Assembly (NCBI RefSeq): GCF_932294415.1
Contig: NC_065536.1
Coordinates: forward strand, 54,656,354 to 54,720,353
DNA from: Quercus robur
Lineage: Eukaryota; Streptophyta; Magnoliopsida; Fagales; Fagaceae
Direction of reading: 5' to 3'
Length of the DNA: 64,000 bases
Numbering within the stretch: the first letter of the stretch is position 1; the number at the start of each line of letters is the position of its first letter. Shown here piece after piece: positions 145 through 64,000 of this stretch. The position numbers were made by a program, and so were the translations under genes. Under the pieces are notes generated by a model. That model did no database searches and was not told the origin of the DNA. It was given only the letters and a program-made list of their open reading frames with translations.

Positions 145-774
145 AAAGCAATGAGAAAGTCTAAGAAGAGTGGACTACAGATAGAGAAGATGGTGATGGT
201 GATGAGCATGAGAATGAGAGAGGAGGAGCGTTTGAGGAGAGAAATATAGTTGGTAGAGAACGTAGAACACACTAGACTTTGATACTGTGGGCTGAGAAAA
301 ACTGTGTATTGGATGCTGTTTCAGTTTGATTGGAGTGAAAAAAACGCAAATGCAAGATTAGAAGTTGGCACTATGATTTGGAGTATTATAAGTGGATAAA
401 TAAAGAAAAGCCAATTTGACCGAACAGATTTCATTCATGTAAAGGTCAAAAAACATAATATGTGGTATTATTCATTATCGTCGTATGGTATGGGGTCAAT
501 AAACCTACACTAGAAACACTCTTTTTTCATTCAAGAAAAAAAAAAAAAAAAAAATCCCAGATATATATTGTTGACTAATGATCAATTTTAATTGAGTACT
601 CATCTCTTTTAATATTTCTGTTTTATTGGGATATATATCTTATTGCCTAACCATTTGGTTTTGATAAGATACTCTCCAAAACTTATGTTGATTGCTTATT
701 TGAAAAGTATTGTAGGAAATGAGGGGGAAATTTTTCGCATGAGGAGACTCGCCAAAATAAGCTCTAAAAACCCA

Positions 775-812
<38 letters not shown>

Positions 813-2050
813 TGGGTTTTAGCTTGCCAAACTAACTAGTTAGATTAAGGAATAAAATTCTGTTTTCCCCCACTCTTAATCTTCTATTTCATGCTCCACA
901 AATGCAAATTCTATGTCTCACTTGTTGTATTACACTTTATATTTTATTAATCAAAACATATTACACTTACTCTTTTTCCCTTATAAAGTAACCAAAATTT
1001 AAAAAGGGAAAAAAAATTCTCACACGTGACATCTCGCTAATAAACCATAAAGTAAAACACTAAAAATTAAATAAACTTCAACAAAGCAAAAACACAATAT
1101 CAAAATATAACACTATATTCAAATTATGAAATAAAAAATCATTTGTCCTACTCCTAGTATTTGATTATATGATTCATTAATCGCAGCATGTCACGACTCA
1201 CGTATACTTTTTTTTTATATAAAGTAACTAAAATAAAATCTAAAACTCTGTTTTGCAACCACAATTTCTCATAGAATTTTTCACAAGCTTCCATTTTAAA
1301 TTCAAAACATCTTTTCTAACAGCTTATACATGTGATACACCCTATGAATAGTTAGATATCATGTCAATGAGTTAAATCAATATATAACTTACAATATTTT
1401 TTTTTAAAAGCAAATCTTATCAACTTTAAAATCACATCTTAATCATCTATATCTACGTGGAAATTGATATATGACCAACTGATCTGGTCTGATTTCCCAT
1501 TATCTTCAAGAATCTTCTGGGGCCAAAAACCCATTAAAATAAGTCAATGGGAAAGAGACCTTCATCCAACAGGGATTAAAAAATATATTCGAACAATCTC
1601 GGGCCACTGCTTACGGCCTTCTGTAGTATGGCGACGTTGCTACCTACTCTCTACTCTCTAGAGCTTGCCACAACCATCCACTAGAAAAGCTCGTATTATA
1701 CGTCCAATTCAGTACATGTGGCTATTACTGGGACGGGTTAAGGGAATAAACTAAAGCAAGAACAATGAAAGGTTCAATTTCAGTAATGATACAAAAGTTG
1801 AAGTAAACAAGTGTGACTAATAAATAATCCATTTTCAATGGCCTCATTCAAAAGCAAATAACTCAGGTACAAGATTCATTAATTTCTGAGAAGAGGTAAC
1901 ATAAACGAAAACTCCAAGACTAGAAAAGACTCAAGAATGCTACTCTTGTACAGCCCCTTCTCCCACAAAGAGGAAGAGAACCAAAAGCTATAAGAAAACT
2001 ATATAAAATCAAGGGAAACTACTATGATTAAGAAAATATGTCAACTACAA
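145..2050. other. Intergenic, AT-rich, no gene seen
   Basis: This lies between the start of the PIRL gene and the 3' end of MAK16. It holds homopolymer runs (A at 540-554, T at 781-811) and many short stops in all frames. A 65-codon plus-strand ORF at 1464-1661 resembles no family I know and has no splice or promoter context. The left 100-300 bases should contain the PIRL promoter and leader, but no clear TATA box stands out. Confidence 0.6.
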
Positions 2051-44032: not shown

Positions 44033-45508
44033 CTTCGCTTAGTCTGAAAACAAAAGAATATATTCAACCTTAAAATCAAAGTAAGGAAATAAGAATAAAA
44101 ACATTTGTCCACTTTTAATGTTTTGATTGCATGTAATTCTTCAATTAGTTAAGTGTCCCTTTTTTTTTTCTTATATAAGATTTTCATTTGAAAAAAAAAA
44201 AAAGCAATTGCAAGTAAAGACCCACCAGCAATGGTAGTGACCGCCAATTCATAATAACAGCCAAGCCTAACTTGTATAAGGTCGACAAGTCTATCATTGG
44301 GTACTTCATCTTCTTCACCTACGTTCATCAACATTGTCCCATTCTCTCCCAAGGGTATAAATTCAAAATAACCCATATTGGGCAAGAGGGTATATGCTAC
44401 ATCAGAAGGGTCACATAAGGGCTTCAAGTTAACCCCAAAGAAACATTCTGATGAGGTATAAATGTTTGACACCAATGGCAATTTCCCATCACTATAATAC
44501 TCTAGGGCCGGTATATATTGTGCCATCGAGCCAGTGATCGCAGCCTCAATGAACTTAGCTCTAGGCCAAAGTAGAAGTACATGCCCTTGCCCTCGTCAAC
44601 ACCAGGGACATACCTGGAATTAGAATGTCACACATGCTTAATTAGAAACAAGATGTATTCTTGTATAGCTAACCTGACCTTAATTAGTTGTGCGGGTTAT
44701 AACTAATAACTTGTTATGAAATCTAATTCAATGCAGGCTTGTGATTATGGTTTTATGATTGTAATGATTTAAAGTCAAAACTTAGAAAAAATCTTACTGG
44801 ATTTTAATTAGAGTTTAATTTTGTGCTAACTGTTAAGTGTCCAATTGACCTTTTAAAATTTTGGTGAACCACAATAATGTCATTGCTTCAATCTCAATAC
44901 AATACTTGTTACTGAACTGTTCTGGAGATGAGCACCCTACAAAAATGTGAGTCCCATTTATTATTCATAGATATCTATTTGTATTCCATTCATTGTTTAT
45001 ATATGTTTTACATAAGAAAATGAACTGGTGTAATAGTTCTTTAAAGAATAACCCAAATGTCATTATATACTTCTAATCGATGCTAGTCTACTTTCAACTT
45101 TATATCTTCGCCTAATTGTTGTGCATGCTTTAAATCCAAAGTTAGATCTACGTTTCAATTTCATTACTATTTGGCAAAATTCTAAGGTATTTTTTCATTT
45201 TTTTCATCTCTATCTTTATTCTTCAAAATGTTATGTTGTCTACGTGAATATGAAATGGATATATATATATATATATATAACATCAATAATATCATTATAA
45301 TTGAACATGTCTATGTGTAAGTACGGGTTACAAGGTAAATAGTAAGTGAAAGACTAAAAGTCAATTTTCTTTAACAATTTTTAAAAGAAACATTAGTAAA
45401 AACATAAAAACAAAAAAGGAAATGTTAAACAATGCCCTTAAGACATTGGTTTAAGAGATATTTTTAAAAACATTTTATTAGGAGAATAATAAAACAATAA
45501 ATGTAGTT

Positions 45509-46155
45509 TGTAAGGACTCAATTTGTAACGATCCCAAACCGGTCTTGGGTTTGTACACTAAAAGAGCCCAAACAATATAATTTGTAGAGCGTGATTTTGA
45601 AAGGCTAGGCCTTGGTCACCGTACGGTGGGTGGTCATGGTATTCATACAGAGATTTACCATGTTTGCCCAAGAAGTCTTTCTCCTCGGCATGGCCTAGGA
45701 GGCCCTGGTTCTTGGCCTTTTTTCCCAGCCCCCTTTTCTGGATTGCTTACTTCTCCTTTTATATTAGCCTTTACTCCTCCTCCAACGTCCACGTGTAGCT
45801 TCAACCATACCCAAAGTGGTTGGAGGTGGTTGTAAAAAATGAAAAGCATTGCTCTGTCTGACGCAGAGTATTTAATTGCAGTAATGACAGCCTTTCCTTT
45901 GTTCTTTGTCGCCAAATTGTCCAGGGGTCCTTTCTCCATCAACGTGGATGTGTTCGGTTTTTCCCTAAATTGTTTCTATACCGTTCTTGCCCTTTCTTTT
46001 AGGAATGCTTTAGGATGCCGAGGATAGAATCATCCTCGGCTATGTCTCGTGGCTATTTGGACTTTCATTGTATGTCTTCGGAAATTCCTCTTCTCGGCTC
46101 AGGCCTTGGACCCTAAAGCAAAGTGGGCCGGGGTCACAAGCTCTTTGGCCCTACA
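45509..46155 (-). repeat. LTR (3' in element sense), 647 bp
   Basis: It begins TGTAAGGACTC and ends GGCCCTACA on the plus strand. It matches 49556-50232 throughout but lacks about 30 bases present there at 49853-49884 (tttccagggctgatacttgt and following). Many single-base differences indicate an old insertion. ORFs inside it are not genes. Confidence 0.92.
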
Positions 46156-46488
46156 ATAGCCCTTCAAAATCCTGCTGTCCAGCCCCTCGGATGGAGATGA
46201 GGGTTTTGGTGACGTCAGGCCTATGTCACGGCTTGCCAAGCTTTGTCCTTCATTAATATCGGTGTCTTCTCGTTTGCCTGGGAAACGCTCCAGGTTATGA
46301 GACATTCATTTGGTTTTACTCACGTCGTGCTTCTGCTGTTTCAGTGTACGAGGCGCGCTTTTAATAAGTTTTTTTTACGAGGCAACGCCAATCCAACGGT
46401 TGTAGATGGCGTTGGGAGTTGAGTGGGAATTATCTCGTTTGTAGTTTTTTCTGGAAATCTGTACAGATTAAATGCCACCAGACTTGCC

Positions 46489-47203
46489 TTCCATATAAGA
46501 AGCAAGGTAGGAGGTCATTTCCTTTACGTACAAACTCCTCAATCTTTCCAAATTCCTAAACCACCTGTTGTGCTCAAAGTCCTCACTGTCAGTGGGATTA
46601 AGCCTTAGGGAGTAACATGGTTGGGGCGAAGGGACCACACCCTCTCCAGAAGTATTGGGTCACTCCGAGACTCAAGATGGCCCGGTCAGGGCAAAGGAGA
46701 CAAAGACTCAAAACACTCTTCCCCCTTGACAAGGCGGGAAAGAAGCCTCTTCTTCCTTTAGCCAAAATCCGAAGTAGGTGCTGGTTGCATCAGATTTTTG
46801 GTGCGACGGCATTAGGGTTGCTCATCATCGGTACCATTCGCTCTCTCTCGAGCGCTGCTAACTTGGCACTGGACTGATGGGAGTCAGAGCTGGCACGGGG
46901 ATTAGACATCCCTGCTTCCTCCTCTCCTCTTTCTCTGGTGCCTCCTTTTACCTCCGCTTCTTCTTCTCTTCCATCACTAAGGACATCCTGATGTTTCTGC
47001 TTCTTCTTCTGCCTTTTCTCCCCTTCCATCAAAGGGACCATCCTGACACGCTTAGTCGCCACAAGAGCAAAATTTTGAAGGATTTTATTGTTCCCTTGTA
47101 TCTTTTTCTTTTTTGCTTTTCTTTTTACTTTTGTAGTTAGCTTCCGGTATAGGCTTGTTTAAGCCCCTTGTTGTACGCTGTACTATTTCTTCGTATTAAT
47201 AAA
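46489..47203 (+). other. Opposite-strand transcription-unit-like segment in the LTR element
   Basis: On the plus strand (antisense to the element) there is an ATATAAG TATA-like site at 46494. Then comes an ORF from ATG 46677 to 46877 (MARSGQRRQRLKTLFPLDKA, later PLAKIRSR and IGTIRSL), and an AATAAA at 47198-47203. The element at 61762 has the same arrangement with a homologous ORF. The gap between ORF and signal is T/C-rich. It matches no known protein. It could be an antisense ORF of the kind found in Tat elements, or a captured host 3' end. Confidence 0.5.
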
Positions 47204-47689
47204 CGATGACTTTACTTTATTCTAAGTACTCTCTCTTTTCTGCAATAGTTATATTGTGAATGGGTGTGCTATCTATTTTTTTTTTTTTTTTTAATTCTGA
47301 ACGATACCTAGGGCCGAAACCCCTGCTAACAGAAAGCTATTATTTTGAACTTATTGAGACAAACAGGCATAATAATGCCGACCTGAAAAAGGTTATACAT
47401 ATAAGACTAACTAGGATAACAGCTGAATGCTATGTATTGCATATGAAGCGATCATCCGAGGATGGGTAACCCAAAATGAACTATCCAAGAGGGTCGCCGA
47501 GGAGTAGGGTACTTTGCCACGTTCCTAACAACATCCATAGCTTTAACCATTTTTGGCATCCGATCCGAGGACCGAGGTATGATTGTACCGGGCCTAAATA
47601 CTCGCTTACATTAGTCTCCCTAGAGATGGGGATCTGAGGACGGTACGGGATTTCCATTATGTCTAAGATTTAATCCATTTTCTAATAAC

Positions 47690-49345
47690 TAATCTCCCCA
47701 TAGGTTTAAGTCCGAGGGCCATGCAATACCTTAGTTCTGTCCAAAACTTAGATTTTTCTTTAAGTAGTTGGTTTCCCCATAGGTTTGAGTCCGAGGACCA
47801 TGCAATACCTTGGTTCTGTCCAAAACTTAGAATTTTCTTTAAGTAGTTGGTTTCCCCATAGGTTTGAGTCCGAGGACCATGCAATACCTTGCTTCTATCC
47901 AAAACTTAGAATTTTCTTTAAGTAGTTGGTTTCCCCATAAGTTTGAGTCCGAGGACCATGCAATACCTTGGTTCTGTCCAAAATTTAGATTTTTCTTTAA
48001 GTAATTGGTTTCCTCATAGGTTTGAGTCCGAGGACCATGCAATACCTTGGTTCTGTCCAAAACTTAGAATTTTCTTTAAGTAGTTGGTTTCCCCCATAGG
48101 TTTGAGTCCGAAGACCATGCAATACCTTGGTTCTGTCCAAAACTTATATTTTTCTTTAAGTAGTTGGTTTCCCCATAGGTTTGAGTCCGAGGACCATGCA
48201 ATACCTTAGTTCTATCCAAAACTTAGAATTTTCTTTAAGTAGTTGGTTTCCCTATAGGTTTGAGTCCGAGGACCATACAATACCTTGGTTCTGTCCAAAA
48301 TTTAGATTTTTCTTTAAGTAGTTGGTTTCCCCATAGGTTTGAGTCCAAGGAGCATGCAATACCTTGGTTCTGTCCAAAACTTAGATTTTTCTTTAAGTAG
48401 TTGGTTTCCCCATAGGTTTGAGTCCGAGGACCATGCAATACCTTGATTCTATCCAAAACTTAGAATTTTCTTTAAGTAGTTGGTTTCCCCATAGGTTTGA
48501 GTCCAAGGAGCATGCAATACCTTGGTTCTGTCCAAAACTTAGATTTTTCTTTAAGTAGTTGGTTTCCCCATAGGTTTGAGTCCGAGGACCATGCAATACC
48601 TTGGTTCTGTCCAAAATTTAGATTTTTCTTTAAGTAGTTGGTTTCCCCATAGGTTTGAATCCAAGGAGCATGCAATACCTTGGTTTTGTCCAAAATTTAG
48701 ATTTTTCTTTAAGTAGTTGGTTTCCCCATAGGTTTGAGTCCGAGGACCATGCAATACCTTGGTTCTGTCCAAAATTTAGATTTTTCTTTAAGTAGTTGGT
48801 TTCCCCATAGGTTTGAGTCCAAGGAGCATGCAATACATTGGTTCTGTCCAAAACTTAGATTTTTCTTTAAGTAGTTGGTTTCCCCATAGGTTTGAGTCCG
48901 AGGACCATGCAATACCTTGGTTCTATCCAAAATTTAGATTTTTCTTTAAGTAGTTGGTTTCCCCATAGGTTTGAGTCCAAGGAGCATGCAATACCTTGGT
49001 TCTGTCCAAAACTTAGATTTTTCTTTAAGTAGTTGGTTTCCCCATAGGTTTGAGTCCGAGGACCATGCAATACCTTGGTTCTGTCCAAAATTTAGATTTT
49101 TCTTTAAGTAGTTGGTTTCCCCATAGGTTTGAGTCCAAGGAGCATGCAATACCTTGGTTCTGTCCAAAACTTAGAATTTTCTTTAAGTAGTTGGTTTCCC
49201 TATAGGTTTGAGTCCGAGGACCATACAATACCTTGGTTCTGTCCAAAACTTAGAATTTTCTTTAAGTAGTTGGTTTCCCTATAGGTTTGAGTCCGAGGAC
49301 CATGCAATACCTTGATTCTATCCAAAACTTAGATTTTTCTTTAAG
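47690..49345. repeat. Tandem array of 21 units of 79 bp
   Basis: Each unit contains cccataggtttgagtccgag, gaccatgcaataccttggtt, ctgtccaaaacttag and tttctttaagtagttggttt. One unit (near 48090) has an extra C and is 80 bp. Units 9-19 (about 48330-49160) alternate between 'gaggacc' and 'aaggagc' forms, that is, a 158-bp dimer. Because 79 is not a multiple of 3, the minus strand gives a ladder of spurious 73-residue ORFs. There are no unique spacers, so it is not a CRISPR array. A monomer of the same family lies at 63936-64000. Confidence 0.97.
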
Positions 49346-49535
49346 TTTAGGGGGATTAGCCCCTCGGCCAAGGTGTGGGACGTTGATCTGACATTGAAAG
49401 CCCCTAGAACCATCCGTGCCACTGACGCTTCGAAACGTAGCCCCTAGTGGAACTTTATGTTAAGACACTACAACGGGCTGCTGGAAGTGATGGAGGGACT
49501 TTCTCGATCTACCGCCTGTGCCAATGCACAAGCCT

Positions 49536-49553
49536 TTCCCACAGACGGCGCCA
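49536..49553 (-). promoter_or_regulatory. Primer-binding-like site of the LTR element
   Basis: On the minus strand TGGCGCCGTCTGTGGGAA begins two bases after the LTR end. TGGCGCC is the usual start of a tRNA-complementary primer site in plant Ty3/gypsy elements. It fixes the element's direction. The exact tRNA was not checked. Confidence 0.6.
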
Positions 49554-49555
49554 AT

Positions 49556-50232
49556 TGTAAGGACTCAATTTGTAACGATCCCAAACCGGTCTTGAGTTCG
49601 TACGCTAAAAAGGCCCAAACAATATAATTTGTAGAGCGTGGGTTTGAAAAGTTAGGCCTTGGTCACCGTATGGTGGGTGGTCATGGTACTCATACAGAGA
49701 TTTGCCATGTTTGCCTAAGAAGTCTTTCTCCTCGGCATGGCTTGGGAGGCTCTGGTTCTTGGACTTTTTTCCCAGCCCCCTTTTCTAGATTGCTTACTTC
49801 TCCTTTTATATTAGTCTTTACCCCTCCTCCAACATCCATGTGTAGGTTCAACTTTCCAGGGCTGATACTTGTCCTATCAGTCCATACCCAAAGTGGTTGG
49901 GGGTGGTTGTAAAAGCTGAAAAGTATTGCTCTGTTTGATGCAGAGTATTTAATTGCAGCAATGGCAGCCTTTCCTTTGTTCTTTGTCGCCAAATTGTCCA
50001 GGGGTCCTTTCTCCATCAATGTGGATGTGTTCGGTTTTTCCCTAAATTGTTCTTATACCGTTCTTGCCCTTTCTTTTAGGAATGCTTTGGGATGCCAAGG
50101 ATAGAATCATCCTCGGCTACGTCTCGTGGCTATTTGGACTTTCATTGTATGTCCTCGGAAATTCCTCTCCTCTGCTCGGGCCTTGGGCCCTAAAGCAAAG
50201 TGGGCCGGGGTCACAAGCTCTTTGGCCCCACA
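49556..50232 (-). repeat. LTR (5' in element sense), 677 bp
   Basis: The full-length partner of 45509-46155, beginning TGTAAGGACTC and ending GGCCCCACA. On the element strand it runs TGTGGGGCC..CTTACA. Confidence 0.92.
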
Positions 50233-51086
50233 GTTGTTAATAGCTTTTTATATTTCTTATGAAAATGATGTCAAAACTTTTCTAGCTATTATGGTTTATT
50301 AACAATTACCTTAAAGGAATCGGTTAACATGACCCAAACAAAAATTATATTAGCAATTTTTATATCTCAAAAAGCAAGGAAAAAGGGTTATTAACCAAAT
50401 ATATATATATATATATATATATAATTGAATAAGTATATTTAAACATTAAAAATCTACTAAAAATTTTGGGCTTAGCCCCAAAAATGTATTGAGACCCCGT
50501 GAAAAATGGAGATGGAATTATCTAACTGATTCATGATTGGCGTGATAAGGCTAACGAAAAACACGATCCTATCAAGATCTTCTTCGATTGAGGGCATCAA
50601 CTTTGGCTTTCCTTCTGAAGTCCCTGTACTGCAAGTACCATGACACAAATTAATTACTTCACAAAGCAAAATACTATTGAAAACCCACAAAAAATGAGGA
50701 ATTCATGAGAGAGAGTGTAAGACCTCATTATCATTTCAGTTATAGGGTGGCTAGTAATGAGAGAGGAATCTTCACCATTAGCAATTCTTTGGATGTAAGG
50801 GCGAATAGCCTTGTAAGTAACGACAGGGACACTTTGCTTGAACTCCAACATATTTTTTGATCCTTTCATATACTTAATAAGATAATCGGTTGCACTATTT
50901 TGAGTTAAGATCTCTTTCAAAATGTTCTCTTGTACTTCGTCAACCTTTGTAGTAAGTCTCTCAATCTCCTTTAATGCCTCCTTGTTCTTCCCATGCATGT
51001 TATCAGATAGAGATGAGCAGAAAAGTTTGCAGCAAAAGGGCAATTTGAGTCTCAATATTCAGCATTAGTTTATGTAATGAGTTTGG

Positions 51087-51523
51087 GGACAAAATTGGCA
51101 AATGCCTTTTTCGGGCAAAAAAAGCAGTATTATGCCCCATTTCCCAAACTAATTAGGGAAATGCCCCTCTTTTGAAACTCGATTTTCTCAAAATCGAGTT
51201 AAGCTCTATAGTGGCATTTTTAAGGATCTTATAGTGACGTTTTAAGAACTTATAATGACGTTTTGAAACTCGAGCTCCATGAACTTAAGTTATAGGTAAA
51301 AAAAAAAAAATTGCATGTAACTCGAGTTCAAGGAGCTCGAGTTTCAAAACACCACTATAGGTTCTTAAAACGTCACTATAGGATCATTAAAAACGCCATT
51401 ATAGGGCTTCACTCGATTTTGAGAAAATCGAGTTTCAAAAGAGAGGCATTTCCCTAATTAGTTTGGAATAGGGGGCATAATGCTACTTTTTTTGCCCGAA
51501 AAGGGCATTTGCCAATTTTGTCC
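51087..51523. mobile_element. Foldback MITE with 10-bp target duplication (Mutator-like)
   Basis: It starts GGACAAAATTGGCAAATGCC and ends GGCATTTGCCAATTTTGTCC. The two halves are near-perfect inverted repeats of about 210 bases around an A-rich centre. Both flanks read atgagtttgg (51077-51086 and 51524-51533). Target duplications of 9-11 bp with long inverted ends are typical of Mutator-like elements. It sits 79-89 bp upstream of the GH3 ATG and could form a long hairpin RNA if transcribed. Confidence 0.9.
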
Positions 51524-51547
51524 ATGAGTTTGGTTAAGTAAAATGCC

Positions 51548-51589
51548 TTTCTCTCTCTCTCCCTCTCTCCCTCTCTCTCTCTCTCTCTC
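51548..51589. repeat. CT-rich microsatellite
   Basis: An interrupted CT/CCT tract of about 42 bases just outside the foldback element. Confidence 0.9.
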
Positions 51590-51749
51590 ACTCCCTCGCT
51601 CTCCGAATTTTTTTTTTTTAAATATATCAAATTTTGCCCCAAAATTCAGGAGCCTTTCTCTAGTAGGAGGCCCTAGACTCCTAGACGATGGCATAAGTCT
51701 AGGGCCGACCCTGACTACTACTATTTCTTTTTGGATCATATTAATAGAT

Positions 51750-51960
51750 GCCGCAATTGTTAATAAAACATAATAGAAAAGTTTTGATACTACTTTCATA
51801 AGAAATATAAAAAATTGTTAACAATATTTATTATTTTATCATTCTCTCAATAAAATGTTTTTTAAAAAATGGTTCCTAAACCTTGGTTAACTTTTCTCTT
51901 TCTTTTTTTGTTTGGAGGCTACATTAATTGCCCTAACAAGTTAAACATCTTTTTTCAAAT
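51750..51960. repeat. AT-rich MITE-like sequence, inverted relative of GH3 intron DNA
   Basis: The reverse complement of about 51760-51860 (atatttcttatgaaagtagt, caaaacttttct, attttattgagagaatgata) resembles 45455-45508 joined to 50233-50310. This means the LTR element at 45509 inserted into another copy of this small repeat. Boundaries are approximate. Confidence 0.45.
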
Positions 51961-52015
51961 AACCATTTTTGTTAGGAATGAACCATAACATTTAATAGCG
52001 CATTTGGCTAGCTAA

Positions 52016-53129
52016 GAGCATATCTCCAACCGGTTATGCCATCTCATCCTATTTTACCATCCCAAAAAGCTACTCTATCAATTATACAATACAATTTTAC
52101 AATACTCCCAGCATCCCAACTTTTATTTTCCTATTCTCTTCATTAAAATAATATTTCAACACAATAAAATAATATATCTCACAATCACCATCATTCACAA
52201 TACAACCTATTATTTATTCTTTCTCTCTTTCTCTTTGTTCAAGAACCACAATCACCACCACTGCTGCACTACACACACCTGACACCACCACCACTACCAC
52301 CACCAACAACCCATAATCTACTGTCAACACCAAAAAAAAAAAAAAAAAAAAACACAGCAACCCACGGTAAAAAACCAGACCCACGCCATTGCCGCTGAAC
52401 CCCAACAAACCACCAATCACCACCACCATCACGCCACACGCCCACCGGAAAAATCCACTCTATCAAAACCCCATTAGAACGAAACCCACCCAATCAAAAC
52501 CCGATCTCCATATACGCCAATCAAAACTCCGATCTCCACAGAACCCACGCTGATCAAAACTCCATCAGAACCCACCCGATCTCCTTTTGCCAATCAAAAC
52601 TCCATCGGAACAAAACCCACGCAATCAAAACCCGATCTCCATATACGCCGATCAAAACTTCGATCTCCACAGAACCCACGCTGATCAAAACTCCATTGGA
52701 ACCCACTCGATCTCCTTCCGCCAATCAAAACCCCATCTGAACCCACCCAAAATCAAAACCCACCTCGCCACACCGATCTCCACACACGACTAGCCACAAC
52801 CCATATGCCCCACGATGAACTCCATGCAAAACGACCCAAGCAGCTCCAATGGCAAGTCTTGAACGAGAGAGGGAGTGAGTGCAATCACATGGAGAGAGAG
52901 CAAAAGTGAGAATGCTGAGAGAGAGTAAAGAGAGAGTGCTAAATAAAAAAAATATATTTATTTTTAGAATTGAGCTATAGTACCATCTTACATTTAAGAT
53001 GGTACTGTAGCACAATTGTAATTTTTTTTAAATTTTACAATTTGAAAAGTCCGGCTAGAGCTCACTTTTAATGTCTTAATGCTAAAACATGCTAAAATAT
53101 GGCATTTAGAAGTTCAGCTACGAATGCTC
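52016..53129. mobile_element. Harbinger-like non-autonomous element with TAA target duplication
   Basis: The left terminus is GAGCATATCTCCAACC and the right terminus ends CGAATGCTC. TAA flanks both (52013-52015 and 53130-53132). The interior is CCA/CAC-rich with a tandem duplication. The right part repeats 'gatggtactgtagcacaatt', shared with 41540-41570. ORFs on either strand are low-complexity. No transposase. Confidence 0.75.
52491..52752. repeat. Tandem duplication, 131-bp period
   Basis: Two copies start at 52491 and 52622 (caatcaaaacccgatctcca, tatacgcc, cagaacccacgctgatcaaa). Shorter 'aatcaaaac..gatctcc' submotifs recur every 30-45 bases within each copy. Confidence 0.88.
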
Positions 53130-53438
53130 TAATGGCGTGCAAATTATGTAAGAAATGGCAATAACTGACTATTCTATCTTCAAATTTGACTTTTGTGAAT
53201 TTGGGATGTCGAACACCAATTTGTGGTTGAAATATTATGCGTGCACCAGTTGCACCTAAATATTTGATAAAAAAAAATTGTATTAGCATTACTCATGCTT
53301 CAAGGGGTTCAACGACTTGATAAAAAAGCATTATAGGTATAAAATATTAGTTTAATTGACTTTTAAAAATATGGAAATATGGAGGGTTTATTATATGTGT
53401 GTGTAAAGTTATCATGTTATAATAACATATTAAGTTAG

Positions 53439-55866
53439 TGTTAAAATTCACAAGCTTAACAAGAAATCTCAAATCATAAAAGAAAAGTTGCAGAAAGCTC
53501 AAGAAAGTTTGAGAAACAAAGAGAAAATTTCAGAGAGAAGAAAGAAAATTCATTGCTCTAAGTTTTTGTGTAATTATAGAGACTACTTATCATACACACT
53601 AAGCTAGTATTTATATAGTGTTGAGGCTCATTTTTGACAAGCCTAGTAAGAGAAAAGGCCCAGTGACACGGGCAGACCAAAGTTAGCAATCAAGAAAAAG
53701 CCATTGAGCTCAAGTGGCAGGAATGAATAGCTCATGGGCTCATAAAGTGGATCCTGAGGAAGCAAACGGGCTTGAATGGGCCCGGAAAGAGAGAAGAAGC
53801 AAACCCATGGGCAACATGTAGAAAAGCAAGAATGGGCCACTGCAGGCCCAAAGTAATGCAAACAAAGAAAGTAAGGGGCTAATGGAAAACCCATCAGCCC
53901 TAAGGGTGAGGTATAAAGTAATTGGGTTAGGGAAGCCTAAGAGAGTTAGTAAAGGCCCATGGGAAAGCAGGATTGGAAAAGGGCCGAGGAAGTTCAAGGA
54001 AAGCAAATGGGCTAAGGATGCCCAAGAAGGAAATGGGACACAAGAGCCCGCAAACAATGTAAGAAAAAGCCCAGTGAACACACTGAGTCACTGGGAGGGA
54101 AATAAACAGCAGGCCCAAAGAGGCCTAGTAAGATTGAGTCAAACAACATTACAGTAGGAATAGTAGGGTGGTACGGCAGGAAATGCTAACAAGGCCACGG
54201 AGTGAACACAGAGTAGGCTGGGGGAAGGAAGGCCCATGATCCAACAAGGCTTAACCCCCAAAAGAAGCAAGTCATAAAGAATGACAAATCAGAAAACAAC
54301 CCACGCCATAAGAAGCCAAAAGTGCATGGCAAAATGTATAGACCAATCTCTAGATCACGGCAAATGCATGGGCAGCAGGCAAAGAAGGTGGAACACAAGC
54401 AAGACCCAAGCACCACCAACCTGTACCCAGCCAATATAGGAAGTAGTGGGTCATGGGTTAGAGGTAAGAAAGGGCATGGTCTGGAGGTGGAGAGAGGGAA
54501 AAAACCTATTTTGGGATTCTTGCTCAGGCTCTTTTGGGGGAAATGTCCTGCTGGGATGACATGCCACCCAAAGAAGTAAGGATGAGTTGGAACCACTAGG
54601 TACATGCCATAAGGGATAGAGAGAGAGAGCACACACACTGTAATAGGTAGAAAAGCCACGGCAAGCAAACAAAAAAAATAGCCTTCTTTGTCTAACAGAG
54701 GGGAGCGGCACAGCCAACATAGGTAAGTGGTCGTGGCTGAACAACTGACGACCAGTAAGTGGTCGGCAAGGACACCCACACCAAACAAAAGTAGTTAAGA
54801 GCTAAAACAGTAAATACCAGTCACAGCAAGCTCTATATAAAGGACCCCTTGTTGTGTACTGAGGGGGAGGAAAAAATCACGGTAATAGGAATTTCTAGGA
54901 AAAGCTATAACCAAAAGTAAGCATTGGGAAGAAAAGGAAGTAAAGCAAAAGAAAAGAAAAGTAAGAAGTAACGAGAGGAAAAGAAAAACAGAGAGTTTAG
55001 AATGGCAGGCATGCACCAATAGGTTGATCCCCTCTCTCCTTCAATAGTCTTGCTCTCTATAAAAAGCAAAAGACCTATATTTGGACATAGACCATTTAGG
55101 CATGTTCTCTCAAAACAATTAATTTCTTCTCTGAGATTACTCGTGTTGAGAGAATAGTTGTCCCTTTCTTAGTTTCAATCCCGTGTATTACTTGGCATGG
55201 CAGATTAACACTTTGATTTTGCTAACTCCGTTTATCCTTCACTTAACTTATTCTGTATACGGAGAGCCTTTTGTTGCTCACTTTTATTTATTGTGGCTAA
55301 AAGTAGTGACTATATTTTCTTGTGTTATCCGTATTATATTTGCCTGCCATAACTTCTTTATAGCGACTTTGCTTGCTATGGGCATGTAACCAAAGCCTAG
55401 CAAACGTGGTATAGTTTGTGCACAAGCCGGACCAAGATGGGTTCTAGTTTGATTGGTCTCAACTCCCTTATCCAAAAAACTCGGGCCTAGTGTAGTAGGA
55501 AGCAACCCAACATCACAAACAAGGCCCACCACCTTACATACAGCAATTACCAAACCAAATGCGGGGGAAAGCTTAACTAACTCCTAACACATTCCCTAAT
55601 AAGGCTCCTCCAAAAAGATTTAGCCAAGTGGCACTCCCTCTAACTACATAATTAACCAACTTCACTCACCATGCAGTGCACATGATATTTAACCACTTAA
55701 TGCCTTAAGTAACTTCTTCAGCCACGCTTCAAGCCTCCTGTGATGCTTCCTGTGATGCTTTGCCTGTGCACTACCTGTCTTCAAAGTGGATTTACCTCCT
55801 TCCTTCAATCCTAATTTACCCATCTTCAATTTACTTTTATCTTTAATTCCAGGCTTCTTCTTAACA
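53439..55866. mobile_element. Solo LTR (about 503 bp) carrying a nested LTR
   Basis: It starts TGTTAAAATTCACAAGC and ends CTTCTTAACA, with gttag on both sides (53434-53438 and 55867-55871). Copy A has one gttag at 22904-22908 at the same place, confirming an insertion. Its own sequence is 53439-53618 plus about 55544-55866; the rest is the nested LTR. Confidence 0.82.
53619..55538 (+). mobile_element. Nested solo LTR of the TGTTGATG family, 1.9 kb
   Basis: It starts TGTTGAGGCTC and ends CCACCTTACA. The flanks are tatag (53614-53618) and tacag (55539-55543), a 5-bp duplication with one change. A TATATAAAGG box at 54834 gives the plus direction and is conserved at 58773 in the sister copy. The interior is full of 'gggcccaa/ggcccat' phrases. 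The 200-codon minus ORF at 54186-54788 is chance. Confidence 0.82.
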
Positions 55867-56501
55867 GTTAGTAATTAAAAAATTAGTAAAGTTAATGATG
55901 TATTATTTATATATATATATATATATATGTATGGATGAGTGCGGTTATTTGGATCAATAATTAATACGATACACATAGGTTGAGTTTTATCATTCAGTTT
56001 AAATATTTTATAAAAACAATGACAGATAGATAATGACACCTGCATAAAAATAAATAATGTTATTCAAAATTTATAAAATAAAATGGTCATATCTACCTTA
56101 GCTAAACACGTTGAATTGCTTAACAAAAGATTAAAAAAAATATGTGGGTTTTTTACTTTTTTGCTCATTTCATTCCGATTTGGCTACAAATGGACTTGTC
56201 AATATTTGAGCTTTCATGGCTCAAAGTTTTGAATTAAAATGATAGGAAAGCAATAGAGTCAAGAAGACCTTGTGAAACTTTATAATGTTTTAGTTTCCAC
56301 GCTTCTACGCGTTGATAAAGAACTCTTTGATTGAAGAAATGGATAGAATAAAAGTGTAAAACATTGGGTTTATTCGGCATTTTCTTTATGCACAATTTAT
56401 TGGCATGTTCATACTTACTTTACAGTATGAACATGCATTCTTGCCAAAGTTTAATGTTTAAAGATGCTTCAGCCTTCTCAGCAAAAAAAATAAAATAAAA
56501 T

Positions 56502-56505
<4 letters not shown>

Positions 56506-56539
<34 letters not shown>
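56506..56539. repeat. (AT)n microsatellite
   Basis: A perfect AT tract of 34 bases within copy B. The corresponding place in copy A (about 24345) has a plain A run. Confidence 0.93.
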
Positions 56540-56541
<2 letters not shown>

Positions 56542-57502
56542 TACAGCCTTAAAGCCCATGTTCCATAGCCATATGAAAAACACCCTCATAGTGAGAATCC
56601 TACGAGTTAATTGAGTGTTCCAAACCCGCATTAAAAAAAAAATACCCTCATCCAATCTAATAAGAGAGTCAACTGAATTGTCAGTGGCTTTCAAATAGGA
56701 GGAATTTTATTCTAATAATATTAATATTTTGTAAAACTGAACCATTGGCTTCATTGGCTGAGTGTTTATTTTGGGTGGGTGGGGAGTGCCTTTTGAAAAC
56801 CATCTGCCTTTATAATTTATATAGTTGATTTCATAGGTATATTGTCTCAATTTTTTTTTAAGAATAAAGTTTAACTACAAAATTGGTTATAACCTACAAT
56901 CTTATTTAATATTATTTTATTAGAGGTGAATTTTGACAAATCCACTATTAGATTACATTTTCTTCTTATATCATTCATGCTTGCAAAATTTCTAGAAAAT
57001 CAAAGATCAATAACTATGTTATCAATAAATTTTTTAAATTGTAGGTTTTTGTAGTTTAAAATTATGAATAAAATATAAGTTTATAGATCATATAGTAATA
57101 ATATTCAACTGACACAAAATTTGACATATGTATTAAAAGCACAAAGAATATGCAATCCAATTATTAAATTTTCAAAATATGTAGTAGTTTTAATAATATT
57201 GAGTAAGGTTGCAGCCTTAGACTAACCAATTTTGTAGCTAAATTTTTTTTTTTTTTGGACTTTTAAGTGTTATTCATACTTTGTAGGGTGGGCCTTTTTG
57301 TGTATTGGGCTAAGTTGCTCTTGTTGTACCACGGCCCTGTGATTCTGGAGTAGGAGAGTCGAGACTAGCCTAATTAAGACACAGCTTAGACCAACTTGTG
57401 CGCAAATTGGACCCTTCTTATTGTGTTGATGCGTCCTGACAAGAATCTCAAGCATATCTGCATGCTCATGGCAGGAAAAATTGTTACAAGTGTTATAGTA
57501 GG

Positions 57503-59526
57503 TGTTGATGCTCATTTTGAGGCCCAATAGCAGGAAGAAGCCCAACAATATGGGCAAAAAAGAGTTAATGGATGGTTAGAAGAACCATTAAGCCTGGCTG
57601 GCAAGAGCAGTGGTTCATAGGCCCATAAAGTACATAAATGGGCCTTAAGGAAAGCAAATGGGCCTAAAGAAGCCCAGAAAGAGAAGTAGAAAACTCATGG
57701 GTATTATGTGATGTGGCAAAGTAAGAATGGGCCACCGCAGGCCTGAAGTAATGAAGTAAGAAAGTAAGGGGTTGATGAGAAGCCCATAAGCCCCAAGGAT
57801 AAGGAATAAGGTAATTGGGCCTGGGAAGTCCAAGGAAGTTAGTAAAAGCCCATGGGTATGTAGAATTAGAAAACAGGCCAAGGATACCCAAGGAAAGCAA
57901 ATGGGCCAAGGATGCTTAAGAAGAAAGAAATGGGACAAAAGAGCCCACAAGCAATGAAATGAGTCAAAAAATGCCTAAAGTAGCATGAGTATAAAACCAA
58001 TGACCATATGGAGTCATTAGGAGAAGAATAGGCAGTAGGTCCAAAGAGACCCAACAAGCACGAGTCAAACAACACCATGGCAGGAACAGCAAAGTGGTAT
58101 GGCAGAAAATGGTAACAGGATTACGAAAGGAGTAAAGAATAGGCTGAAGGAAGAAAAGCCCACAATCAAGCAAGGCCTAGTCCTTGAAAGAAGCAAGCTA
58201 TAAGGAATGAGAAATAAGAAAGTAGTTCACACCATAAAGGGTCAAGAGTGAGCGGCAGAATGCGTAGATGAGCCTCCAGACCACGGCAAACGCATGAGCA
58301 GCGGACAGGTTTTGGACGTACACAGAAGTGGAGCACATGCAAGGCCCAGACATCACCAGCTTATATCTAGCCAATACAGGAAGTGGTGGGTCATGAGTCA
58401 GAGGTAAGAGAGGGTATGGTCTAGCGGTGGGGAGAGGGGAAAGCCTATTATGGGGTTCCCACTCAGGTTCTTTTGGGGGAAATATTCTGCTAGGATGACA
58501 TACTACCAAAAGAAGTAAGGATGAGCTAGAACCACTAGGTGCATGTCATGAGGGATAGGAAGAAAGAACACCCACACCATGGCGGATAAGAATACCACGG
58601 TGAGCAAGCAAACAAAATAATCTTTTTTGTCTGGTGATGGGGAGTGGCGCAGCCAACACAGGTAAGTGGTGGCGGCCAAACAACTAACAAACCAATGGTG
58701 GTCGGCAAGGACATCCAGACTAGAAAAAGGTAGCTAAAGGCTAAAATAGTAAAAATCAATCACGGCAGGCAGTATATAAAGGACCCTTGTTGTGCACAGT
58801 AGGGGGATCATCATCACGGCAATAGTAACCACTAGGAGAGAATCACAACATTACTAGATAGGTAAGTACTGAGAAAGGAAAAGAGGAGAAAAAGAATTAG
58901 AAATAACAAAAACAAAGAAGAGAGAGAGAATCAATAAGAGAAAAAGAAGAGTGTAGAATGGTAGGCATGCACCAATAGGCTAATCCCTTCTCTCCCTCTA
59001 AAAGCCTACCCTATTTTAGGAAAAATGACTCATTTGGGCACAAGCCATTCAGGCCCATTCCCTTAGAGTAGGTAATTTCTATGGCAAGATCATCCTGTGA
59101 AGTTACCCACGTTGAGGAAGTAGTTTCCTCTTTGGCCTTAACCCCGTAGCACAATCAAATGTGGCAGACTGATCTTTCATTCTTTAATTTTCTCACTTAT
59201 TGTTATTACTTCTCATCTCATCTTTGTAACCTCACTCAGAATGTGTTTTTCTTTCCCTGTTTTGACTAAGGATTTCTCGCTTGTCTTGCCTTAGTAACTT
59301 ATTTATTTCATCATTATTTTATCATATTTGTCTGTCGTGACTCTTTTATAGCAATTGCGTTTGCTATGGGCACGTGATTAAAGTTTCGACAAACGGGGCA
59401 TAGTTTGCATACAAGCCGATTCAAGGTGGGTTACAATTAGACTGGTCCGAACTCTCCTATCCAAAATACTTGGGCCACAATACAGCAGGAGATAGTCTAG
59501 CCCAAAATCACAAAATGCCCACCACA
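57503..59526 (+). mobile_element. Nested solo LTR of the TGTTGATG family, 2.0 kb, intact ends
   Basis: It starts TGTTGATGCTC and ends GCCCACCACA, with gtagg exactly duplicated (57498-57502 and 59527-59531). TATATAAAGG at 58773 marks the plus direction. It inserted into a member of its own family in the opposite orientation, so the region can form a long inverted repeat. Confidence 0.9.
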
Positions 59527-60331
59527 GTAGGAAAACACAATACAGCAGGATATCTGAAACACTTAAACTAAAATATTTTCTGCTAACAACAATAATACAT
59601 GAACAGTTCCACGAAAGAAAAAAATATATCACAATGTGATTATGGCAGAAATAGATTAATAGCAAGATGTTAGGTTAGTCATTAATCAACCATGACAAAG
59701 GAAAGAAGATTAGTCTGCTAAAGGAATGGGCTTGGCTCTATAGCAGATTTAAGTCCAAAAAGGGAACCAATTTCCAATGTGGGTAACCTTAAAGAGGAGT
59801 CCTATTGTAAAAGTTACTCAGTTTGGAAAATGGACCTAGATGGCTTAATCTCAAATTCTTAACTCATTAGGGCTATTGAAAGGGAGAGAAGTTGGTAGCC
59901 TATTGATGCATGCTTTTACTCCTATCACTCATGTTTTTCTTCATTACTCTTAGTTTTTTGTGTTCTTTCTTCCTCTTGCTCATTTTCTCTATTTTCTTCC
60001 TTTTCCTTCTCCCCCTTTTTTTCCTTCCCTTTACTATGCATGTCTATGGCCTCTTATACTGCCTACCATGACAAGATTTGCCATTTTTACCTCTTAACCA
60101 CTTTTGGCCTATTGTGGGTGTCCTTCTAGGATTGCCCACTAGTCTACTGGTTGCCTAGCCACTACTACTACACTATGTTGGCCGTGCCATGCCTCATTCC
60201 TAGGCAAAAGTGGTTTTGTTTTAATTTTTTTTTTTACTTCCCCTTGATACCCTCATTCGAATAAGAGTTAAACTTCTCCCTTACTAACCTTTATAGTATG
60301 CACCTAGTGATTCCAGCTCATATTTACCTCT

Positions 60332-60829
60332 TTTGGATAAGATGTCATCCCAGCAAGACATTTCCCCTAAAAGAGTTTGAGCGGGAACCCCAAAATAGGC
60401 CCCCCCTTTCTCCCCACCGCCAAATCACACCCTATCTTACCTCTGACCTGTGGCCCACCTCCCCTGTATTGACTAGGTACAGGTAGGTGGTGCTTAAGCC
60501 ATGTGTGTGTGCTCCTCTTCCATGAGTCCATTGCTTTCTAGCTCTCACGCGTTTGGCATTGCCTCCAAAAGAGAGATGACATCTCATCTCTCTTTGGATG
60601 AGATGATATCCCAGCAGAACATTTTCCCTAAAAGAGTTTGAGCAGGAACCCCAAAATAGACTCCCCCTTTCTCCCCACTGCCAAACCACACCCTGTCTTA
60701 CCTCTGACCTGTGGCCCACCTCCCCTGTATTGACTAGGTACAGGTAGGTGGTGCCTGAGCCATGTGTGTGTGCTCCACTTCCATGAGTCCATTGCTTTCT
60801 GGCTCTCACGCGTTTGGCATTGCCTCCAA
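60332..60829. repeat. Tandem duplication, 261-bp period
   Basis: Units at 60332 and 60593 share atcccagca, taaaagagtttgagc, cctctgacctgtggcccacc, tattgactaggtacaggtag and ctctcacgcgtttggcattg. It lies inside the minus-strand LTR and produces a spurious repetitive minus ORF (60432-60911). Confidence 0.93.
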
Positions 60830-61761
60830 GTTTATTTGATTCTGCTGCACGTTCTAGTGTTTGTTTAACTCTTTCAGCATGAATAAATTTTTGGGTTTTC
60901 ATTCTCTGCATCCCATTTCTTCTTCAAGCTGGGCATTGCTTGGGTGTGAGCTTTCTCTTCTTTAGTTTGGCCCATGTTCTCTTTTTATCCTTTATCTATG
61001 GGTTAGTTGGTGCTCTTGCCACGCCACTACATTATTCCTACTGTGATATCATTCACCCATTTTTTGTCTTGTCATTACTTCTGGGCTTGCGAGCTGAAGT
61101 ACCTGCCATACCAATTTCTCATATTATTTCTTCTTGTAGTCTTTACTGCCCAGCATTCTTGTTGGGCCAATCCATTCAACACCTCGGGCTTCCTCGGCCA
61201 ATTTCATTCTTTGGGCATCCTCGGCCCGTTTCATTCTTTGGGAATCCATGGCTCATTTCATTTTTTCCTACCTCTTTCATTCACATAGGCTTTTGCTAAA
61301 TCCTTTGGGCTTCCCTGACCCAATTATCATGTCCTTTGCCTTTGAGTTTATTGGCCTCCGAACCAATCCCATTTACTAATTCCTTTCTTTGGCCTCCTCT
61401 GGTCCCTTTTTGCTTTTTTTCCATTTCTTACTTCTTATGATTCTCATGAGCTTACCACTTCATTCTTTGGGACTTCTTTGGCCCGTTTGCTTTCTTTGAA
61501 GTCACTTATTATTTTGTGAGCTTGTAGATCATTATTCCTGCCATTCTAGCATAATGATTTTATTTTATTGCTTTCTTTATCCACCTTTTTCATATTGTCA
61601 GGCTCTATCTGCCATTGGGCCCTTTTGTCAAAAAATAGGTATCAGCACTTTGATCCTTTATATTTTAGTATAAAAAAAAAAAAAAAAAAAAAAAGGCATC
61701 AGCCCTTTTCAAAAAAAAAAAAAAAATCATAAAATTTAGTAAAATTACTTAGATATATATT

Positions 61762-62517
61762 TGTAGGGACACAAAATCTTCAACGGCCCAGCGACGATGT
61801 TGGGCTTGCACGTGGAAGATCCCTCACAATAGTATTTGTAGAGAGTGGGCTTGAAAGGCCAGCGTTGGATCACAGGGGGGACGTTTCGAGCCGGACTTTA
61901 GGTGAGCCGATATGAGAAAAAGCTTTGGGCTGGATATTCGGGCCCATCAATCTTGTACCTAAGAGGGTTTGTCTCCTCGGATCATGTCCGAGGAGCGATG
62001 GTGTTGTCCTCGGTTACCCGTCGATAGTTTCTTTGGTGTTGTCCGGCGTATATTCTCCAGGCATTCTCTTTCATCAAGTCTTTTTTAGAAGCTGGATGGG
62101 AGACCCCCTTCTTTATTAGTTTACCTTTCCTTTTATACTAGCCTACGTTTGTTGTCCCTCGTCCACGTGTAGGGTCGATCTTTCCAGGACAGATATTTGT
62201 CCCATCAATCTAATCCCAAAATTACTGTAGATGATCCATAAAGCCTAAGATCCCGGCTCTGTTAGGGGCAGTGTCATGTCAGGGAAGGGTATTAAAGACA
62301 ACTTCCCCAGGATATTTTCTGATCTTTCTAGCTTACTCATGTTCTATTCCTATCCCTGAGATTTTGGGCCTGCCGAGGACGAAGCCGTCCTCGGCTATGC
62401 CTTCGGGCTATTTTTATGCTTCCTAGTTTCGAGCTCGGGCCCCGGCCTCCTTCAGTTTAAGACTGGTGGGCTTCCCATAAGCGTGTGGGCCGGACCCGTA
62501 AATTATTGGACCCCACA
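61762..62517 (-). repeat. LTR of the second Tat-like element, 756 bp
   Basis: It starts TGTAGGGACAC and ends GGACCCCACA. It is related to the 45509 LTR at both ends (cctcggctatg, ggcccgg, gtgggccgg) but clearly diverged, so it is a separate subfamily. Confidence 0.78.
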
Positions 62518-62853
62518 TTAGCCCCTCAAAATCCTGCTGTCCAACATCATGGTAGGACAAGTGGATTTTGATGATGTCAAGCCCTTATTGCCGCTCACTT
62601 TCTTCGGATCTTAATCAACACTGGCGACTCTTTCTCTCCCCAAGGAACGCAACGGTCTACGAGCCGTTTTTCCTGGATTTGCGCGCGTTGCCGTTATGCC
62701 GCGTGGTTATCTGCAGCGTGTCTTTAATGTCTTCCCATTTACGAGGCTTCCCAGATGCAACGGTTACTGATGGCGTGGGAGAACGAAACGGCGCGTTATA
62801 CTCTGGATTTCCCTGGGGATCTGAATGTGTCACATTCCCTCTTCTTCATTCCC

Positions 62854-63553
62854 TATATAAAGAGAGAAGACAGAGGATGATTCTCTCATATCTGAATCCC
62901 TCACGTTCTTCTCAGAATCCATTTCCTCCATCCGGTTCCTCCCTACTCAATAATACTTCTCTCATAGTAATCCACCATGAACAAACCTTTCCTTTCCCAG
63001 AAATGTCATGTCCTGACAAAACTTGAGATGGCTCGGTCAGGGCAAGGATGGCGGAGGCTTAAGATTTGCCTCCCCATTCTTTTAGCCAAAATCCGAAGCA
63101 GGGATTCGTCACACCCCATTTCTGGTGTGACTGAGTCGAGAACTTCCCTTGTTATCTCCATCCGCTCTCTCATGAGCATACCTAATATGGCTCCCCTTCT
63201 CCCTCTTTTGCTCCTTTTATTTTCTTTTCATTGCTTCCCTCTTCTTCTCCTCCTTCCCGCTCATGTCCTCCATCTTCTTTTTCCCTTGCATTCTTCAGCA
63301 ACAAGAGCTTGCTGAAGTGCTTCCATGTGTTCCAATTCTTCTTCCTTGTCCTTCATTATTTTTGTATAAGGATCTTCTCCTGATATGAGCAGTACTGAGG
63401 CATAGATTTCAGAAAGACTTTGAAGGCGAATTCAGAAGACACCTGATGGTTTACTTGTGTTACGGATGTTGTTACTGTTTTAGCAGTTCATTTTTTGTAT
63501 AGGCTCGTTTAAGCCCTCCCTTATACGTTGTAACAATTTTTCATATTAATAAA
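62854..63553 (+). other. Opposite-strand transcription-unit-like segment in the second element
   Basis: TATATAAA lies at 62854-62861 and AATAAA at 63548-63553. Between them is an ORF from ATG 63028 to 63315 starting MARSGQGWRRLK and containing LLAKIRSR and SIRSL. These match the first element's MARSGQ, LAKIRSR and TIRSL in order. The remainder of the ORF is a low-complexity Leu-rich tail. Function unknown. Confidence 0.5.
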
Positions 63554-63935
63554 AGTTATTGTTATTCTATCTCGTATGTCTTGTTTATATATTTTAACAA
63601 ATGTGAAAGCGCTGCTCGGCATAATAGTATAGCATTTCAATCGATATTAAATAAGGCCAAAGTAATCGCTGATAAAAAGATGCCACGATGACTTTAACAA
63701 AATTATTATTCAACATAGCAATCCGACCAGTGAGGAATGAGACTTATCTTAAAATTAGCCGTGATGGGTATTAGTTGCTTCAATAAGATGTAAGAAGTAT
63801 CTGTCCGAGGACGTGTTACCCGCCGGATGAATGGCCTCTTTAGGTTGACGATCATTAGGTTGTTCTGCCATTTTCATGATACGCGAGACTTAACCCTTTC
63901 CAGTATTTAAGCCGAGAAATTTCTTCATTCGGGCA

Positions 63936-64000
63936 GTTGATTTCCAAAGCAGCCTGAGTCCGAGGACTTTGCAAAACCTGGGTTTTGTTCGAGACTTATG
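63936..64000. repeat. First monomer of a 79-bp-type repeat
   Basis: It reads gttgatttcc, tgagtccgaggactttgcaa, aacctgggttttgttcgaga, parallel to the units at 47690-49345. The window ends here, so the array length is unknown. Confidence 0.7.

Follow-up and report, generated by a model that had tools for sequence, protein, structure and literature searches.

The window analysed here, 64,000 nucleotides of Quercus robur (contig NC_065536.1, positions 54,656,354 to 54,720,353), contains at 45509-50232 an LTR element that reads on the minus strand. Its order on that strand is LTR, primer site, leader of about 190 bp, 79-bp tandem array, antisense unit, polypurine tract (PPT), and LTR. An earlier note on this DNA had given the same boundaries, with two LTRs and a primer-site-like motif, and these are borne out: terminal repeats lie at 45509-46155 and 49556-50232, and the motif TTGGCGCCGTCTGTGGGAA (minus strand) adjoins the LTR at 49556. 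Because of this adjacency, the element runs from right to left, and the plus-strand unit near 46494-47225 is therefore antisense and close to the 3′ LTR, as the note had also proposed.

The 5′ LTR (49556..50232, minus strand, 677 bp), delimited by repeat comparison, reads TG...CA on the minus strand and has a TATA motif in sense orientation at 49810 (minus). The 3′ LTR (45509..46155, minus strand, 647 bp), likewise of the form TG...CA, has a 30-bp deletion relative to it; across 646 aligned columns the pair is 93.3% identical, with this one 30-bp indel. The primer-binding-site-like sequence (TGGCGCCGTCTGTGGGAA; 49536..49553, minus strand), recognised by sequence and position, occupies the identical position in aligned sister copies, some of which carry substitutions. 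The leader (49347..49535, minus strand), defined by alignment with other copies, continues directly into the array, and a PPT-like sequence (46156..46182, minus strand) adjoins the 3′ LTR and is shared with a distant relative, D. The element thus has the signals of an LTR retrotransposon, a primer-site-like sequence after the 5′ LTR and a PPT-like sequence before the 3′ LTR. Rfam at gathering scores returned no match in 45500-64000. We read the flanks of 21 elements for target duplications, and 16 have an exact 5-bp duplication. Three (the window copy, with ACAAC versus A-ACTAC, L022, and L026) deviate by one mismatch or by an offset; L027 can be seen only in part, and L014 has no duplication. 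The LTRs, primer site, leader, array, antisense unit, and PPT constitute one transposing unit.

The array (47695..49346, no strand assigned; core GTCCGAGGACC) was resolved by TRF as 20.9 copies of period 79 with 94% matches; at 1652 bp of an interior of approximately 3400 bp, it matches the earlier description of 21 units filling half of the interior. Among copies, arrays range from 3 to 33 full units, the longest one read being 2746 bp. Part of the window array (48336..49163) has a higher-order structure that is private to this copy, in which six variant units (CCAAGGAGC) alternate with normal units in a six-fold 158-bp dimer. This private dimer shows that the array expanded within a single copy.

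On the plus strand, a predicted antisense transcription unit (46494..47225) has the sequence motifs TATAAG at 46494 and AATAAA at 47198, and the same unit is found in D. Within it lies a small open reading frame (ORF) of 66 codons (MARSGQ...; 46677..46877, plus strand), defined by comparison of A, the subfamily of the window copy, with D. We had considered the unit noncoding on the basis of stops and frame breaks, and set this reading aside because the stop test is weak: the antisense gene of a sister subfamily, B, has single-copy stops although one of its stretches is under purifying selection. Retested after the discovery of D, coding for a small conserved protein is possible, though we judge it somewhat doubtful. 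By eye, the MARSGQ and LAKIRSR blocks differ between A and D at synonymous places only, and a 27-base gap preserves the frame. However, the ratio for this ORF within A (0.53-0.71) overlaps that for shifted frames (0.60-1.06), 48-codon windows in all frames give median ratios of 0.65-0.69 with a minimum of 0.43, the longer of the interior ORFs is interrupted in 15 of the 20 other copies, and Pfam gives no match for the small protein.

The absence of gag-pol, also claimed in the earlier note, is likewise borne out: Pfam gave no match above the cut-off for any of the three interior ORFs that reach 80 amino acids or more, for the longest sense stop-free stretch (122 amino acids), or for ten sense-strand stretches from B and the window. 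The interiors of sister copies are explained by the same segments as that of the window copy, in an order common to all 20 fetched loci, and the array is native to the family rather than a later insertion. These loci were the 20 best matches, and more distant members carrying gag-pol may therefore have escaped detection. An exhaustive count with an A-specific 32-mer (up to 2 mismatches; reversed control, 0) placed subfamily A at 107 sites genome-wide. The element accordingly belongs to a nonautonomous family, as proposed, and is not a single wreck; a uniform multicopy family without gag-pol is LARD-like. Nonautonomous LTR elements of the LARD and Dasheng/RIRE2 types are presumed to move with the help of a relative whose ends match theirs. 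Here, in contrast, array and antisense unit make up the interior, and no partner was found among the candidates covered. A gag-family search that scored 150 of 6795 candidates did not yield an autonomous partner, and no pair within 12 kb was found between the 48 exact leader places and the first 100 of these 150 gag candidates. At least 22 of the 48 leader places have an A unit 0.9-2.5 kb downstream, among the matches listed (100 of 107 A-unit places).

The array is not confined to subfamily A. Subfamily B, which also lacks recognised gag-pol, has the same leader-array junction, while its LTR has only the two ends in common with that of A. Arrays with 74-76-bp periods were considered as candidate autonomous hosts and rejected, since the 5′ flanks of two of them, L041 and L042 (74-75-bp units), proved to be leader plus LTR; these represent further subfamilies sharing the junction. 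In total, the junction is present in all 32 array-bearing elements (31 loci), including B, L041, and L042. At the level of sequence comparison, these data show a leader-array junction common to subfamilies with largely different LTRs.

Two further observations bear on the lineage. B keeps an antisense gene of approximately 2.9 kb with a weak Transposase_28 match (20.0 bits; cut-off, 26.2), and one 200-codon stretch beside the Transposase_28-like part has a dN/dS of 0.27. A further relative, C, is a pol remnant without the region from gag to reverse transcriptase (RT); it matches the integrase end weakly (17.7 bits against a cut-off of 30), and an RNase-H-looking stretch has no Pfam match. In C, a doublet of 80 bp that is homologous to the 79-bp unit lies approximately 80 bp downstream of pol (score, 61; none of 1000 shuffles reaches this score, the maximum being 53; nhmmer E down to 9e-8), and an antisense Transposase_28-like gene (21.1 bits) follows it. 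A and B have no pol after which such a repeat could be placed. The right part of L014 had been considered as an autonomous relative with an A-type PPT side; it is C inserted in a second A fragment. Across the relatives, Transposase_28 matches score 16.4-21.1 bits, all under the Pfam cut-off, and A has none. RT is absent from the element and from every relative read, so that assignment to the Tat/Retand lineage, which the element fits, rests on the antisense gene and the segment order. The parts that the earlier note called Tat-type match what has been described for the pol-3′ LTR region of Tat/Retand elements, with the below-cut-off antisense gene and the homologous repeat after pol found in relatives.

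According to the accessible part of a survey of Retand elements (Vicient 2025, PMC11963269), a long stretch separates pol from the 3′ LTR and carries antisense ORFs, with Transposase_28 in 97% of clusters; tandem arrays of 8-100-bp units, often beside pol and variable in copy number, occur in about half, and LTRs measure 315-1194 bp. The order pol, repeat, antisense gene described there is that of C, and the window family resembles these elements in its antisense unit and variable array. It differs in that gag-pol is wholly gone and A also lacks the Transposase_28 gene; the surveyed elements were found via RT and hence all have RT, although 10 of 63 clusters miss some domain. Among the matches listed from the open-licence literature, none described a Retand-type family that lacks gag-pol altogether.

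Taken together, the element is probably a copy of a long-lived nonautonomous LTR retrotransposon lineage derived from the Tat/Retand branch of Ty3/gypsy. Gag-pol would have been lost once, prior to the subfamily split, when a single deletion took out everything between the leader and a point shortly beyond pol, and the array may have descended from a short repeat that lay next to pol on its downstream side. An autonomous relative, acting in trans, would package and copy the LTR transcript, array length would change during or after replication, and the antisense unit may be retained since its product or transcription is used. Losses of this kind do occur, as the separate gag-to-RT deletion in C illustrates, and each copy or subfamily could instead be a separate wreck of full elements; however, leader end and array start are joined identically in A, B, L041, and L042, and we regard repeated loss as quite improbable. 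Still harder to sustain is the idea that an independent satellite entered an LTR element, whether by capture or by insertion, and that the LTRs are a mere frame. The exact unit 27-mer occurs at 3006 places genome-wide, far exceeding the content of the approximately 107 A copies, so arrays must occur in many other contexts. Against this idea, a leader and LTR stand beside the array at 31 of 31 loci, including B and further LTR types, and the homologous doublet follows pol in C.

These counts also bear on the suggestion that the element seeds genomic satellite DNA. Growth within one copy is upheld by the private dimer; spread beyond the copy is not. None of the 31 loci examined has an LTR-free array or a long array outside its parent element, all 32 array-bearing elements keep leader and LTR, clusters extend over no more than 1.6 kb as measured from one exact match to another (among the matches listed, 100 of 3006), and the genome-wide count of 3006 unit 27-mers gives no sign of a large satellite. 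In the part of the study of Ogre/Tat elements of Lathyrus sativus available to us (Vondrak and others 2020, PMC7004042), 3′ untranslated region repeats gave rise to satellites, and FabTR-54 and 57 often lie within nonautonomous elements without pol. The short arrays inside elements are alike in both systems, whereas in Lathyrus many repeats form long satellites and gag is often kept; here, none of the 31 loci shows a long array without LTRs, and gag is missing.

New here is that the motif CCGAGGA is shared by array units (180 of 278) and LTR U3 regions, where it occurs about three times per U3, including that of C. Titles and abstract openings of the literature matches listed for CCGAGGA with retrotransposon held nothing relevant. 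Possibly, the array serves as a multimerised cis-element. In a more specific version, which we consider unlikely, it would be a bank of putative binding sites in which CCGAGGA is recognised by the lineage's DNA-binding protein, perhaps B's antisense Transposase_28-like protein; gag-pol-less elements would retain the site and amplify it so as to recruit that protein for transcription, packaging, or targeting, thereby competing with their helpers. We lean instead toward a neutral array, produced by slippage and recombination on a chance repeat, with CCGAGGA a relic of shared array-LTR ancestry. The wide range of array sizes and the incomplete presence of the motif among units favour neutrality, as does the private dimer, whose multiplied variant units lack CCGAGGA and so count against a multimerised cis-element. 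In addition, the partial LTR of L042 has one CCGAGG, within chance, and the rest of the window contains 15 CCGAGGA where 5.05 are expected, 10 of them between 61182 and 63960. On the other side, CCGAGGA alone among 79 unit 7-mers stands out in four U3s (11 matches; best unit 7-mer across 300 shuffles, 6), and it is present in the U3 of C, which is otherwise unalignable to that of A.

Plant satellites can originate as tandem repeats within Tat-clade retrotransposons, according to the accessible part of PMC7004042, and the part of PMC11963269 available to us states the function of the repeats and antisense proteins as unknown. That gag-pol was dropped while the array and antisense side were kept across long divergence suggests that these parts matter in cis. 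The private dimer is higher-order repeat growth caught within one insertion that can be dated from its LTRs, and the motif common to array and U3 points to a specific, testable role that the repeats may play.

The window element lies at 45509-50232 on the minus strand, where the earlier note had placed it: its two repeats, 45509-46155 and 49556-50232, start with TG and end with CA on that strand. The element reads from right to left, since TTGGCGCCGTCTGTGGGAA borders the repeat on the right and a tract rich in purines borders the one on the left. TRF returned an array at 47695-49346 (period 79 bp, 20.9 copies), matching the 21 units of 79 bp in that note, and the longest sense-strand stop-free stretch of the interior has no Pfam match above the cut-off, in agreement with its statement that no gag-pol remains. 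The LTR pair differs by a K2P distance of 0.071 (range, 0.037 to 0.088 in the 21 elements measured). A 190-bp inverted repeat lies beside the element at 51110-51500 (arms 88% complementary, 11 nt between them); 53741-55042 and 57633-58998 are direct copies of ~1.37 kb, 72% identical, and possibly another repeat pair.

We searched the genome (785.7 Mb, 42 contigs) with the LTR plus the PPT side, scored 40 of 4617 first-look candidates, and fetched the 20 loci in which, the window's own match aside, the 21 top-ranked matches lie. The order is the same in 20/20 loci (LTR, PPT side, antisense unit, array, leader, LTR), with arrays of 233 to 2746 bp, and an antisense-unit 32-mer pattern matching 20/21 sampled copies occurs at 107 genomic places with two or fewer mismatches (reversed control, 0). 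These results bear out the proposal of a family, here subfamily A. One locus (L013) holds an additional second element with only 33 bp of the antisense unit left; L016 has an incomplete LTR, and in L017 the locus end truncates one. Flanks read by eye carry exact 5-bp target duplications in 16 of 21 elements and duplications with one mismatch or offset in three, including the window copy; one further case is only partly visible, and one element has none. The flanks of L009 and L011 match each other, and this pair of loci resembles a segmental duplication. Next to one A copy (L025, 6720-9998, minus strand) is a 1,093-aa open frame with RVT_1 and RNase H and a caulimovirus-coat-like match below the cut-off (26.2 of 27 bits); in L013, close to the two A elements, a further open frame of antisense type (1-1719, minus strand) matches Transposase_28 weakly, also below the cut-off (16.4 bits).

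To the window and the 20 A loci we added loci selected by array, namely 8 of 20 not previously seen and 2 of 21 clusters of exact unit 27-mers, which brought the sample to 31 loci with 32 elements that carry an array. Every one of these elements has an LTR end upstream and a leader that continues into the array. The array is therefore integral to the family rather than a later insertion, as the 20/20 A loci also indicate, and the search for LTR-free arrays of the unit found none in this sample. The sample includes five elements of a sister subfamily, B (L030-L034), four of them covered from LTR to LTR (~5.8 to 6.2 kb), whose LTR has ~138 bases in common with the window LTR at one end and ~150 at the other, and two further LTR types (L041 and L042) with units of 74 to 75 bp. 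Nine sense-strand stop-free stretches from two B elements gave no Pfam match above the cut-off. Because such different LTRs have one junction, these data suggest that the loss of gag-pol predates the divergence of the subfamilies.

The 278 full units in 30 arrays (3 to 33 per array) differ by a mean of 0.066 within copies and 0.073 between copies, and the nearest unit lies in the same copy for 31% of units (chance expectation, 5%). In the window array, normal units alternate with a variant six times in 158-bp steps. This variant is absent from the other 29 arrays, and its exact 28-mer occurs at four places genome-wide, all in the window array; the alternating dimer represents higher-order expansion, either in the window copy or in its immediate parent. 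Arrays listed from C1:0.3-15.2 Mb fall into period classes of ~74 to 76, 78, and 79 to 80 bp, which suggests a unit length specific to each subfamily. The unit's exact 27-mer is present in 81/278 sampled units and at 3006 genomic places (reversed control, 0), which extrapolates to approximately ten thousand units genome-wide. The first 100 places all lie on C1, up to 15.2 Mb, in 21 clusters of 1 to 14 whose outermost matches are no more than 1.6 kb apart, at a density of 6.6 per Mb versus 3.8 for the genome. Apart from growth inside one copy, the idea that the element seeds satellite DNA is not supported in this genome: these counts, cluster sizes, and densities leave no room for a large genomic satellite, although elsewhere in the genome there could still be some arrays with tens of units each.

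A relative with pol remnants, C, sits inside an A fragment in L014. It lacks gag to RT and retains a stretch that resembles RNase H but has no Pfam hit, as well as a stretch with an integrase-like end (PF24626, 17.7 bits; cut-off, 30). Two 80-bp units lie ~80 bp downstream of pol and align to the 79-bp unit with a score of 61 (maximum of 1,000 dinucleotide shuffles, 53; nhmmer E down to 9e-8). Next comes a Transposase_28-like gene in antisense orientation (21.1 bits; cut-off, 26.2). Retand elements are reported to have this order, with arrays that mostly adjoin pol or the 3' LTR (PMC11963269).

On its antisense strand, B carries a ~2.9-kb gene with a Transposase_28-like part (20.0 bits; Pfam cut-off, 26.2) and a charged part resembling a coiled coil, for which no Pfam match exceeds the cut-off. 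Across the five B copies, the 200 codons that follow the Transposase_28-like part have a dN/dS of 0.27 (shifted frames, 0.70 and 0.99). Three other stretches gave 0.47 (0.56 and 0.89), 0.44 (0.51 and 1.04), and 0.61 (0.31 and 1.06), so the signal is clear in the 200-codon stretch alone. Stop codons occur in single copies. An A internal-region profile found nothing significant in B except ~138 bp beside the LTR and the array edge; the B-type gene is lost from A. The plus-strand unit of A has TATAA at 46494 in 21/21 copies (TATAAG in 20/21) and AATAAA at 47198 in 19/21, at the 89th and 98th percentiles, respectively, of 12-column windows within A, so conservation of the TATA is not exceptional there. 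A distant relative, D, lies at ~61755-64000 in the same orientation and runs past the window end; its LTR extends to ~62517, followed by PPT side and antisense unit as in A, and its first array unit is at ~63955. The antisense unit recurs in D with the PPT side, the TATA, the blocks ATGGC.CGGTCAGGGCAA and TTTAGCCAAAATCCGAAG, and, upstream of AATAAA, GTATAGGCT.GTTTAAGCCC, and is therefore old; it contains a small candidate ORF.

The core of the unit, CCGAGGA, is present in 180/278 units. Outside the array, the window element has 12 CCGAGG sites (1.1 expected), the largest 6-mer excess, level with an A-run (20 seen, 9.1 expected). Among all 79 unit 7-mers, CCGAGGA gave 11 hits across four U3s (A, 3; B, 3; C, 3; L041, 2), compared with 6 for the best unit 7-mer across 300 shuffles. 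The A, L041, and B U3s are partly alignable, making two or three independent cases rather than four; the C U3, alignable to that of A only across the last ~94 bases, has three sites versus 0.02 expected. Since sites occur on both strands, a DNA site would fit better than an RNA signal. Against a role for the motif, the variant that occurs six times in the window array lacks CCGAGGA (it has CCAAGG), the single CCGAGG in the partial LTR of L042 is within chance, no site occurs in the antisense unit (46500-47285), and outside the element the window has 15 sites versus 5.05 expected. Ten of these 15 fall within 61182-63960, most of them inside D or next to it; some of the ten lie in a 27-bp tandem repeat (61186-61266). 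The window element is real and belongs to a known group, of which it is an unusually stripped member, and what is new and testable in it is one regularity in its array, a motif common to the array and the control regions.
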